Positions 2,742 through 49,843 of a stretch of DNA of 64,000 nt are shown here, one piece after another. Every line of letters begins with the position of its first letter. Position 1 is the stretch's first letter. The notes under the pieces are model-generated. The model had not been told where the DNA came from. It worked only from the letters and a program-made list of their open reading frames with translations, and ran no database searches. The position numbers and the translations under genes are program-made. Source of the DNA: Ruminococcus sp. FC2018 (GTDB lineage Bacteria; Bacillota; Clostridia; Oscillospirales; Ruminococcaceae); assembly GCF_000621805.1 (NCBI RefSeq), contig NZ_JHXH01000003.1, positions 124,001 to 188,000 of the forward strand, written 5' to 3'.

Positions 2742-3172
2742 TACTGCTCACCACCCGTTTCTTGAGTATCTCTGGTTATAAACTTACACTTGATAGGCAG
2801 CTTGTGCATTGCAAGACGCATAGCCTCTCTTGCAGCCTCCTCGCTAACGCCGGCGATCTCGAACATTACTCTGCCCGGCTTAACAACTGCTACCCAGTAA
2901 TCAGGAGCGCCCTTACCTTTACCCATTCGGGTACCAAGCGGCTTTCTTGTTGCCGGCTTGTCCGGGAACACCTTGATCCAGACCTGACCGCCACGCTTGA
3001 TGTATCTTGTCATAGCGATACGGGCAGCCTCGATCTGATTTGATGTGATCCATGCAGGCTGAAGAGCCTGGAGACCGAACTCACCGTTTGAAACCTTGTT
3101 TCCACGCATTGCCTTACCGGTCATGCGTCCACGGTGCTGTTTTCTGTACTTAACTCTCTTTGGAAGCAGCAT
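2741..3172 (-). CDS. rplP: 50S ribosomal protein L16
   Basis: L16 contacts the tRNA elbow near the A site and is needed for late 50S assembly. The 143-residue product starts [17 protein letters not shown] and contains [22 protein letters not shown] and [19 protein letters not shown], including the loop near the peptidyl transferase centre. The ATG overlaps the rpsC stop as TAATG. Confidence 0.98.
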
Positions 3173-7717: not shown

Positions 7718-8293
7718 TTTGATCCGCCTCCTTAAAATTTTTGAATTAGGGGGCAAAGCCTTGTTTTTCCGGCAAAGCCTGAGTCAATTGCGTCTACGAT
7801 CGACTCACCGCTTTTTGTCCTTGTCTATCGCAAACGCAATTGACAGGTTTTGCCCAAGACCTTTCCGGAATACCCTTATTATAAATTTACACTCTGCCGT
7901 GTGTTCCCTGCCTTCTCACAAAAAATTCCGAAACCGCTCAATACGGTTCGGACGTTAGATAGCAGACACCACATAGCCATACACACCCATGCCAAAGCAA
8001 GGTCATCCCCTGCCATCGCAAGAAGCATAAGCACATACTGTGTCAGTATTCCAGTCGCCCGGTTTAAAATCGGACATACTCCACGGAAATTACCCGGTCA
8101 ACCGCCGGCAACCTTCCGCTTCAACGCATATCTTGACCGTTCTGCCGATGCCCGTGCTGATACGGCAGACCCCGTCGGGTCATCCGATTACCTCATGTGC
8201 TCCCGTCGAAGCCCATCAGGCATTTTACAAGCGTCTGTAAGAACGGTGTTGCTGGATCTGTATTCACGCAGATCCAATCTGTGCAGTCACGCA
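7718..8293 (-). promoter_or_regulatory. Long untranslated leader of the S10 operon
   Basis: From the predicted start near 8293 to the rpsJ GTG there are about 575 nt without a convincing gene. Near the 5' end lies a 7-bp hairpin GGATCTG/CAGATCC (8254-8275). Near the 3' end a long imperfect hairpin spans 7771-7854: GGCAAAGCCTGAGTCAATTG pairs with CAATTGACAGGTTTTGCC. No uridine run follows, so it is not a simple terminator. Its length and structure suggest autogenous control, perhaps by L4 or another product of the operon; that is inference. Plus-strand frames here (7850-8353) have no ribosome binding site. Confidence 0.6.
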
Positions 8294-11636: not shown

Positions 11637-11683
11637 CTTCTTATATTCACCTCTTTGAAAATGATTTGCAAAGCGTAAACTAA

Positions 11684-11816
11684 AAAAGAAAAACTCTTTC
11701 GCCGCAAAGACAAAAGAGAAACAAAGTCAATATAAGCTATAAACTTTGCTATTCTTTCCTCGGCGGGTCTTACAAACGGAAATTCCGCTCTGCCAGCTGT
11801 CTTTAGATACGAATGC
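11684..11816 (-). promoter_or_regulatory. L10-type ribosomal leader with attenuator
   Basis: The transcript segment 11806-11752 reads CTAAAGACAGCTGGCAGAGC, then GCCGAGGAAAGAATA, matching the conserved L10 leader core of Firmicutes (AAGACAGC...CCGAGG). Downstream, CTCTTT (11718-11713) pairs with AAAGAG (11699-11694) followed by TTTTTCTTTTTT: an attenuator-terminator. The L10(L12)4 complex is known to bind such leaders and lower expression. Confidence 0.8.
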
Positions 11817-11822
11817 TCATAT

Positions 11823-11851
11823 ATTATAACAAAGCTTTTGTGCTTTGTCAA
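11823..11851 (-). promoter_or_regulatory. Promoter of rplJ-rplL
   Basis: TTGACA (11851-11846) and TATAAT (11828-11823) on the minus strand, 17-nt spacer. Both boxes are perfect, so the stalk genes have their own promoter and do not depend on rplK-rplA. Confidence 0.9.
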
Positions 11852-19564: not shown

Positions 19565-19624
19565 GCCCTTTTTCGCCGTTTTTATCTTTTTTTATTAAAA
19601 CCCGGCTTTTTTATCCCCCATCAG

Positions 19625-19703
19625 GGGCAAACGCCTGCGCCGCAGGCGCAGGGCGGGGCAGCTTCGCTGCCCCGGTCGTGGGCGTTAAGCCCACCGTTTG
19701 CCC
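19625..19703 (-). repeat. Cloverleaf-like palindromic element
   Basis: An outer helix GGGCAAACG/CGTTTGCCC (19703-19695 with 19633-19625) encloses three adjacent perfect hairpins: GTGGGC/GCCCAC (19694-19678), GGGGCAGC/GCTGCCCC (19673-19655) and CGCCTGCG/CGCAGGCG (19648-19632). The element is much richer in G+C than its surroundings and begins directly at the stop codon of the small gene at 19704. It could be a terminator array, a stable 3' end, or a dispersed palindromic repeat of the REP or attC-like class. Confidence 0.6.
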
Positions 19704-19985
19704 TCAGGAGACCTTGAGCCATGCGCAGGCGATATCCAGCGCATCGTAAAGGCTGTCCTTCTTTGCGGTCTTAACAATAGCCTCAAGAGGGCTGATAGTC
19801 ATATCGGTGGACATTTTTCTTATCATGACCTTGTCAGCCACTTCCAGCTCGCCCACCTTCTTGGTGCTCAGTATTTCCATCTGCACCACAAACTCATCGT
19901 ACATATTTCCGAAATAGAGCTGATTGCCCTTTCTCACCAAGGGAAGTCCCTTGTAGGTGAAAAACTTGCTTTTTTCGTTTGCCAT
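19704..19985 (-). CDS. Small conserved-looking protein of unknown function
   Basis: Starting at MANEKSKFFTYKGLPLVRKG, with AAGGAGG 6 nt upstream, the product has 93 residues, no membrane segment and no signal peptide. It contains GNQLYFGNMYDEFVVQMEIL and ends DALDIACAWLKVS. I do not recognise a family. It is downstream of the DUF4340 gene with about 43 nt between, and probably in the same transcript as the ABC genes. The frame upstream to 20057 is not used. Confidence 0.7.
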   Translation of the reverse strand: MANEKSKFFTYKGLPLVRKGNQLYFGNMYDEFVVQMEILSTKKVGELEVADKVMIRKMSTDMTISPLEAIVKTAKKDSLYDALDIACAWLKVS

Positions 19986-48485: not shown

Positions 48486-48515
48486 ATTGCAATAGATTTT
48501 AATATGTGTTATAAT
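48486..48515 (+). promoter_or_regulatory. Promoter upstream of the four-hairpin array
   Basis: TTGCAA (48487-48492) and TATAAT (48510-48515), spacer 17 nt. The -10 box is also the first half of a 12-bp inverted repeat. Confidence 0.7.
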
Positions 48516-48679
48516 TAATGTGTCCTTAATAACCGCTGTCAAGCGGTTATTGCCCCGAACTGCGTTCGGGGAGCGCAAATTCTTAACATAATAGGGAATT
48601 TGCGCATCACATTTCTTGATGTCAAGCTCATTTTTGCCCTAAAGGGCAAATCAGAGTGCAAGAAAAAACATTAATTATA
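48510..48679 (+). repeat. Four-hairpin array with 12-bp terminal inverted repeats
   Basis: TATAATTAATGT (48510-48521) and ACATTAATTATA (48668-48679) are perfect inverted repeats. Between them four consecutive perfect hairpins occur: AATAACCGCT/AGCGGTTATT (48528-48551), CCCCGAAC/GTTCGGGG (48553-48571), GCGCAAATTC/GAATTTGCGC (48573-48605) and TTTGCCC/GGGCAAA (48633-48650). There is no coding frame. It may be a mobile palindromic element (MITE-like), a structured leader of the next gene, or a stable RNA. Confidence 0.65.
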
Positions 48680-48718: not shown

Positions 48719-49060
48719 ATGATAAAAAAATCTATTACAGCCCTGCTCACGTGTGCAGCGATGTGCCTTGCGCTGACCAGCTGCGGTGACGAGTCTCAAT
48801 ATTCGGGAAAGCTGCAGACTTATTCCATAGCTTCTCAGCAAACCACCACCAATAACAGCTCAAAGAAGGACGACAGCTCAAAGGCAGCTACCACCAAAAA
48901 GACAACTACCACCAAAAAGACAACTACCACCCAGGAGTCAACTACAACTACCACTACAACTTCTGCCACCACCACTACCCAGTGGGCGCAGCCTACCGAG
49001 CAGTGGACTACCCAGTGGACACAGCCTGTATACACCCAGCCTCAGCTGTATTATCAGTAA
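48719..49060 (+). CDS. Threonine-rich predicted lipoprotein
   Basis: The 113-residue product has a lipoprotein signal with LTSC (cysteine near residue 22), then a low-complexity region of KKTTTT and TTTT runs (about 55-85) and a Trp/Gln/Thr tail. The nearest AAGGA is 17 nt from the ATG, so the start is uncertain. The sequence would form an extended, possibly glycosylated stalk on the cell surface. It lies downstream of the four-hairpin array. Confidence 0.65.
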   Translation: MIKKSITALLTCAAMCLALTSCGDESQYSGKLQTYSIASQQTTTNNSSKKDDSSKAATTKKTTTTKKTTTTQESTTTTTTTSATTTTQWAQPTEQWTTQWTQPVYTQPQLYYQ

Positions 49061-49267: not shown

Positions 49268-49843
49268 ATGAAAACAACAAAACTTTTTGCTTCGATCTTG
49301 TCTGCAAGTCTGGCACTTTGCCTTTTCTCGGGCTGTGCAAAAGACACCACCAGCGACAAGGGTTCTCCCGATGTTGAGGAGATCGAGGTGATCCGCACGG
49401 TTGATTCCCAGGGCGAGGACGTAAAGCAGACCGACAAGAAGGGCGAATGGAACGTTGATCTTCCCCAGGCTCAGAGCCAGGTCACAACCACTGCAAAGAG
49501 TGCTGAGACCAAAAAGGAAGAGACTGCCACAACCACAAAGAAGTCTACCATAGCTCAGCAGATGGAATCTGCTACACAGCAGAGCACACAGCAGCAGGTT
49601 TGGACACAGCAGACACAGGAAAGCTCAAGGACTTATGCGGCAACTACCACCAAGGCGGCAGCAGCTACTACCACAAAGGCGACAACAAAAGCAACTACAA
49701 AAGCTACTACCAAGGCGACTACCAAGGCGACTACCAAGGCGACTGTAAGAACAACCACGAGAGCCACTACCACGACAAGGGCTACCACAAAGGCTACCGA
49801 GGCGACCACAAAGGCAGGAACCGTCTGGACGGGTATTTCCTAA
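49268..49843 (+). CDS. Threonine-rich lipoprotein with TKAT repeats
   Basis: The 191-residue protein has a lipoprotein signal with FSGC (cysteine at about 23), a charged linker, then Gln/Ser and Thr-rich sequence with repeated T-K-A-T units (about 135-157) and R-A-T units. AAGGGAG lies 7-9 nt before the ATG. The tail suggests a surface stalk or mucin-like glycosylated region. It is the second such gene in tandem (see 48719), probably a duplication. Confidence 0.7.
   Translation: MKTTKLFASILSASLALCLFSGCAKDTTSDKGSPDVEEIEVIRTVDSQGEDVKQTDKKGEWNVDLPQAQSQVTTTAKSAETKKEETATTTKKSTIAQQMESATQQSTQQQVWTQQTQESSRTYAATTTKAAAATTTKATTKATTKATTKATTKATTKATVRTTTRATTTTRATTKATEATTKAGTVWTGIS
49666..49746 (+). repeat. 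Tandem 12-nt repeats in the lipoprotein gene
   Basis: About six copies of a 12-nt unit of the form ACNAARGCNACT code for T-K-A-T. The best-conserved copies read ACCAAGGCGACT three times. Length may vary by slippage. Confidence 0.75.

Follow-up and report, generated by a model that had tools for sequence, protein, structure and literature searches.

A short hairpin-rich repeat in a Ruminococcus promoter is very probably a MITE-like transposon

Introduction

According to the accessible sections of the relevant papers, Correia elements (CREE/NEMIS) of Neisseria are short, bear terminal inverted repeats, lie mostly adjacent to genes, fold when transcribed and affect expression (PMC10969869; PMC2229807). 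The corresponding section on Streptococcus pneumoniae, a Firmicute, describes BOX, RUP and SPRITE as dispersed, hairpin-rich MITEs, with BOX being modular, and reports their over-representation between convergent genes (PMC3049150). The IS1202 family, in the excerpt of its description that was available, adjoins dif/pdif and uses strict, oriented targets (PMC10132070).

Here, we analyzed a locus within a 64,000-nucleotide stretch of the Ruminococcus sp. FC2018 genome (hereafter, the window). An earlier note, made from the letters of this stretch, had described a promoter followed by four perfect hairpins between 12-bp inverted repeats, and had read the block either as a MITE-like mobile palindrome with a built-in promoter or as a structured leader or RNA for the lipoprotein gene downstream. 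The comparisons reported below indicate that the block is very probably a copy of a non-autonomous, MITE-like DNA transposon inserted into a host promoter at a TATAATTA-like site, with a 6-bp duplication of the target. The family has in common with Correia elements that it consists of short repeats with terminal inverted repeats that lie near genes and fold; however, Correia elements carry their own promoter, whereas the promoter here is that of the target. The ends and the TA duplication of Correia elements also differ from those of this family. BOX, RUP and SPRITE are likewise dispersed and hairpin-rich, but the present family often sits in −10 boxes. Its likeness to the IS1202 family lies in a single orientation relative to a functional DNA site, although it has no transposase and its target is a promoter hexamer rebuilt by the duplication. 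The accessible sections on Correia, BOX and RUP elements describe no insertion into a −10 box rebuilt by a duplication (PMC10969869, PMC2229807, PMC3049150), and the excerpts available from the open-licence literature contained no account of the family or of targeting of this sort.

Results

The window locus

The inverted repeats, the hairpins and the promoter match reported in the earlier note are all real. The 12-bp arms (48510–48521 and 48668–48679) are perfect, but half of each is duplicated target, each arm combining the 6-bp duplicated word TAATTA with 4 bp of element end and a TA from the flank. All four stems fit in 123 nt; three have the claimed lengths of 10, 8 and 10 bp, while the fourth measures 8 bp rather than 7. 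The match TTGCAA-17-TATAAT spans 48487–48515, with its −10 (48510–48515) at the start of the left repeat as described. Taken alone, this match is not above chance (1 found versus 1.4 expected in shuffles of a 331-bp stretch), and the promoter is credible because it is conserved in relatives that lack the element at this site (G020 and G015). The features of the locus, in window coordinates, are as follows.

48487..48492, plus strand: host −35 TTGCAA, outside the element; same −35 and same 17-bp spacing in element-free G020 and G015
48510..48515, plus strand: host −10 TATAAT, overlapping the left target duplication; kept in element-free G020 and G015
48512..48517, no strand: probable target-site duplication TAATTA, left copy, assigned from the family; G020 and G015 read TAATCA
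48518..48671, plus strand: the element, an internally deleted copy of 154 bp, delimited by comparison of copies
48518..48528, plus strand: left terminal repeat ATGTGTCCTTA; family consensus ATGTGTCCTCA
48528..48551, plus strand: hairpin H1, 10-bp stem (48528–48537/48542–48551), with covariation
48553..48571, plus strand: hairpin H2, 8-bp stem (48553–48560/48564–48571), in the covariation table
48573..48605, plus strand: hairpin H3, 10-bp stem (48573–48582/48596–48605), without two-sided changes in subfamily A
48608..48630, plus strand: inner junction, consisting of CACAT, the 6-bp spacer TTCTTG and ATGTCAAGCTCA; strongly conserved, joining the two modules
48633..48650, plus strand: hairpin H5, 8-bp stem (48633–48640/48643–48650), in the covariation table
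48654..48668, plus strand: hairpin H6, left half alone, recognized by comparison with copies L002, L003 and L004
48672..48677, no strand: probable target-site duplication TAATTA, right copy
48719..49060, plus strand: small ORF for a Thr-rich, lipoprotein-like product, lying downstream of the element

The downstream ORF presumably encodes a lipoprotein, judging by its start, and its product had no match in Pfam or NCBIfam at E 0.001. A second Thr-rich, low-complexity lipoprotein-like gene neighbors it at 49268–49843, and relatives carry similar lipoprotein-like genes with variable repeat tails after an ABC-2 permease gene. Elsewhere in the window, Rfam ribosomal protein leaders lie on the minus strand (L10_leader, 11679–11824; S10-Clostridia, 8052–8132). 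A GC-rich, multi-hairpin "cloverleaf" palindrome at 19612–19710 occurs at a single place in this genome; it is neither a tRNA according to ARAGORN nor a member of an Rfam family at gathering score, and we saw no link between it and the element.

Copies and their distribution

The genome itself holds four copies with 89–100% identity. A degenerate 23-base core pattern retrieved at least 114 stretches from species-level genomes, a lower bound on a set biased towards high-copy genomes, and nhmmer matched 113 of 114 among the stretches listed. With a six-copy nhmmer profile, 128 of 129 loci, duplicates counted, scored E 0.001 or better, a few of them only weakly; L063 was the one missed. We removed L005, L011, L012, L037, L072, L108 and L129 as duplicates, and also dropped nhmmer hits that scored under 36 bits, left ends whose flank was shorter than 40 bases, and flanks that recurred. 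The exact 12-base end pattern gave, among the matches listed, 38 in G322 and 69 in G323; the reversed control pattern gave 4 and 0 there.

The sources are Ruminococcus flavefaciens strains, YRD2003, XPD3002 and SAb67 among them, and assemblies labelled Ruminococcus, Ruminiclostridium, Ruminococcaceae, Clostridiales or Clostridia, many of which carry rumen or omasum sample names. Within the genus of the window, DNA matches were obtained in 6 of 29 genomes, and the sampled family yielded them in at least 3 of 297, with few candidates scored per genome; the window's own genome is included in both counts. Neither the plasmid nor the phage collection contained a match, and a phage or plasmid origin was rejected on that ground. 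One viral contig (L129) does have a copy, with listed flanks identical to those of the bacterial contig L114. Many of the MAG contigs among L015–L128 start or stop inside the element, which probably breaks short-read assemblies of high-copy genomes.

Extent and architecture of the element

Full copies of both subfamilies, A and B, run from ATGTGTCCTCA to TGAGCAGACAT, which form imperfect terminal inverted repeats. Complete copies are of narrow size: 51 of 56 measure 239–258 bp, with 27 of 31 in subfamily A, to which the window copy belongs, at 239–244 bp and 22 of 23 in subfamily B at 251–258 bp. Their ATG-to-stop ORFs reach 81 aa at most (median 42). Predicted ORFs of at least 50 aa, up to 81 aa, were seen in 19 of the 56, including copies of subfamily B.

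Each full copy consists of two tandem modules: ATGTGTCC, three hairpins, then GGACACAT (subfamily B) or CACAT (subfamily A), a 6-bp spacer, ATGTCAAGCTCA, three further hairpins and TGAGCAGACAT. Beyond the point where the right arm of the window copy stands, other copies continue through the second half of H6 and a seventh hairpin to TGAGCAGACAT, the true right end. The window copy has neither the right half of H6 nor H7 and most of its right terminal repeat is gone, leaving 4 bp (ACAT). It terminates at ACATTA, a word found twice in copy L002, once in the loop of hairpin 6 and once at the right end. About 88 bp would thus have been lost, probably by recombination between two ACATTA repeats, and the likely order of events at this locus is insertion first and deletion afterwards.

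The junction between the modules, CAT-6 bp-ATG, resembles the outer junction of end and target. Single-hairpin palindromes of about 45 bp with similar ends were observed in L097 (about 3082–3138) and L164 (about 240–290), and are possibly ancestral single modules. Given these forms and the likeness of the inner junction to the outer one, the element may be a fused pair of simple palindromes. We also considered a tyrosine-recombinase origin, because the inner CAT-6 bp-ATG mimics the outer junction.

Target-site duplications and empty sites

Identical 6-bp flanks border 40 of 55 complete copies, compared with 13.2 on average and 22 at most when flanks were re-paired at random (5000 shuffles). 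In the other 15, the 6-bp flanks are not identical, and some of these are 7-bp duplications. The duplicated words vary from copy to copy, with TAATTA or TAATAA being commonest; TAAATA, TAAGTA, TAACTA and some 7-bp TAATATA also occur. The target-site duplication that the earlier note had proposed to look for is thus present in most complete copies.

Relatives without the element show what the sites looked like when empty. In G000 the element lies between TATAATTA and TAATTATCAGG upstream of a D-Ala-D-Ala carboxypeptidase gene (Peptidase_S11), where G017 is empty and reads TTGACAAAATGCCAACTTGGGGATATAATTATCAGG. At a FIST-domain gene, G017 is again empty, with the same TTGCAC and TATAATTA. Empty sites in G017 contain a single TAATTA at two loci. 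In the purA promoter, the element of G028 lies inside TATAATTATTGGG; in the 13 of 29 loci viewed, G028 among them, all 12 other relatives are element-free and have TTTACA, accompanied by TATAAT in 10 and TATACT in 2. At the window locus, G020 and G015 are empty and retain TTGCAA-17-TATAAT before the neighboring lipoprotein-like gene. Three further relatives are also element-free there but more diverged around the promoter, in a comparison for which the gene end was located in six of eight loci (all except L228 and L230). The target in G020 and G015 is TATAATCA (TAATCA), and since the right end of the window copy is only ACAT, we infer its own duplication from the family.

In all four promoter sites checked, element-free relatives keep the host promoter. 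The −35 and −10 therefore belong to the host, and the built-in promoter of the earlier note was rejected; the mobile palindrome itself is borne out by the existence of several copies, by their terminal inverted repeats, by the duplicated targets and by the empty sites. The fourth copy in the window's genome lies behind recR, the last codon and stop of which form TATAAT. There is no −35-like hexamer at this site, which is empty in G017 and reads TATAATAA.

Target preference and direction

The consensus of the insertion site is TATAATTA, loosest at bases six, seven and one. TATAAT stands at a fixed place in 52 of 96 distinct left ends, or in 59 when 7-bp duplications are allowed, and 37 left ends are not at TATAAT; only 42 of the 96 combine TATAAT with a −35-like hexamer or TGn. 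Among the 52 left ends with TATAAT, 29 match at least 4/6 of TTGACA at a spacing of 17, and 19 match at least 5/6; at each of the 17 other spacings from 8 to 25, between 0 and 5 of the 52 reach 4/6. None of the 69 mirrored right ends has TATAAT, so the direction relative to TATAAT is fixed, with the left end towards the −35. The same count gives no support to an invertible promoter. Neighboring genes were assigned by a crude ORF rule that sometimes predicts ORFs within the element. Complete copies with TATAAT and a −35-like hexamer have their next gene on the same strand in 18 of 20 cases, those with TATAAT only in 10 of 16 and those not at TATAAT in 7 of 19 (18/20 versus 7/19, p 0.0008).

This strand bias is what would be seen if survival rather than targeting shaped the set: many AT-rich sites would be hit, and sense insertions in −10 boxes would persist, sparing promoter and gene. 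Gene-disrupting insertions would be lost, and the copies here are no unselected set of insertions. Other intergenic TAANTA/TAATAA sites, however, should be about as harmless, yet TATAAT accounts for 59 of 96 element sites versus 64 of 388 such background sites (p about 2e-17), the latter drawn from loci around copies with coding guessed from ORFs of at least 100 aa. Moreover, copies without a −35-like hexamer or TGn still prefer TATAA (25/46 versus 48/310 in the background), and the TATAAT at the end of recR was hit as well. Survival in place of targeting is unlikely on these figures.

Targeting through RNA polymerase or a sigma factor in the open complex, not through DNA sequence, would account for the exact 17-bp spacing and the fixed direction. 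The duplicated stretch also falls within the region usually melted at promoters. Nevertheless, once TATAAT is given, element sites show no significant excess of −35-like hexamers (35/59) over background sites (35/64, p 0.72) or, at 17 bp, over background TATAATNA sites (42/84, p 0.31), and the recR copy took a stop-codon TATAAT that has no −35. We regard this explanation as very unlikely. As half of the intergenic TATAATNA sites near copies have a −35-like hexamer, many copies land in −10 boxes. Sequence preference would be enough to explain the targeting, given the excess of TATAAT, the lack of a significant −35 excess, the taste for TATAA without a promoter signature and the recR copy; survival bias or polymerase-linked targeting could be additions, neither of which is needed.

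Fold and covariation

The block folds strongly compared with dinucleotide shuffles, with z −7.8 as RNA (48486–48679) and z −9.1 as DNA (48510–48679). In subfamily A (29 copies), 98.3% of cells in 75 pairs are paired, and 17 of the 75 pairs have two-sided changes, versus 5.7 in shuffles and 2–5 when partners were slid by 1–3 columns. Subfamily B (22 copies) has two-sided changes in 27 of 95 pairs in the RNAalifold table, with the shuffle and slide controls covering subfamily A only. RNAalifold left the first module of subfamily A unclosed, and two helices of this subfamily are weakly tested, with a single two-sided change in the stem that closes the second module and none in helix 3. The earlier note had held that a single copy without compensatory changes in relatives would argue against both of its readings; the element is dispersed and its stems covary.

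This strong fold, the two-sided changes in both subfamilies and the conserved core between the modules would all suit a dispersed family of regulatory leader RNAs, such as a riboswitch, attenuator or antiterminator. The five neighbors examined, however, are of unrelated kinds (purA, a carboxypeptidase, a FIST protein, the lipoprotein-like gene and recR), and the occurrence of the element in genus and family is patchy. An RNA selected copy by copy should also tolerate more G-U pairs, yet G-T and A-C mismatches are about equal, at 16:16 and 10:15 for singletons and 26:20 and 30:33 for all cells, so the stems show no strand-specific tolerance of G-U. Rfam has no family at gathering score for the window element, and all scores of two full copies were far below gathering; a known RNA family was rejected accordingly. 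The window copy was also scanned for terminator-like sites and gave none, which is consistent with read-through. A leader RNA family is highly improbable, and of the leader proposed for the lipoprotein gene what survives is the expectation that the element is now transcribed from the host promoter.

Covariation may, alternatively, be mutational. Intrastrand template switching can repair imperfect palindromes into perfect ones, and it would do so with the structure unselected. Each stem is indeed a simple palindrome, and several stems have an entirely different sequence in A and in B yet stay paired. Against this, the two-module arrangement and the end sequences are common to A and B, which suggests that source copies need them. 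Unselected structure is a somewhat doubtful explanation that still carries weight. To judge by the even mismatch counts, the stems seem to be maintained as features of the mobile DNA, or through palindrome repair, or, in old copies, not at all.

Search for a mobilizing partner

Exact end patterns revealed no autonomous element with the same ends in 6 genomes, among the matches listed, nor in a scan of the 29 genomes of the genus. Allowing one mismatch per end in loci L001–L164, we obtained 12 end pairs more than 300 bp apart, none of them a candidate. Three had at least 4/6 matching flank bases, the other nine having 0–3: the pair in L073 spans 322 bp with a longest ORF of 42 aa, that in L160 spans 354 bp of nested fragments, and that in L119 spans 2281 bp with poor ends and flanks and was taken as chance. 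Exact end-pattern hits in the window's genome (L161–L163) contained no hairpin element on reading. Positions 260–614 of L160 form a composite of element fragments, in which an internal TTGACC..TATAAT leads into a second fragment, as in a nested insertion.

Discussion

Comparison of copies and relatives establishes dispersed copies, terminal repeats, duplications, empty sites, a target consensus and covarying stems. The element is short, has no transposase gene, ends in terminal inverted repeats, is flanked by target-site duplications and occurs in multiple dispersed copies, as MITEs do. The most probable course of events is that an enzyme acting in trans on the two ends, with a 6-bp stagger, inserts the element at TATAATTA-like sites, whereby 6 bp (sometimes 7) of target would be duplicated. 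The duplication would leave TATAAT whole on the left beside the old −35, so that the old promoter survives. Transcription would then begin at the left end or immediately within it, and the element would be read as a structured 5′ leader. The window copy would have entered the promoter of the lipoprotein gene in this manner. A more specialized variant, in which the machinery reads the −10 (as DNA or open complex) in a fixed direction and the element's own folded RNA, once transcribed, is needed for mobility or protects the host, is distinctly unlikely.

For a non-autonomous transposon of this kind, the sequence comparisons suggest that a promoter, even that of purA, can be entered without being destroyed, as the duplication would regenerate the −10 hexamer. 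The occupied and empty loci constitute a natural experiment: at several loci, and in cultured R. flavefaciens strains, the same promoter can be compared in the presence and absence of a folded leader of 240 nt, which bears on how an inserted structure affects transcription, RNA decay and translation. The element also marks likely promoters in rumen Ruminococcus genomes, and prompts the question of which enzyme takes a promoter hexamer as its target.
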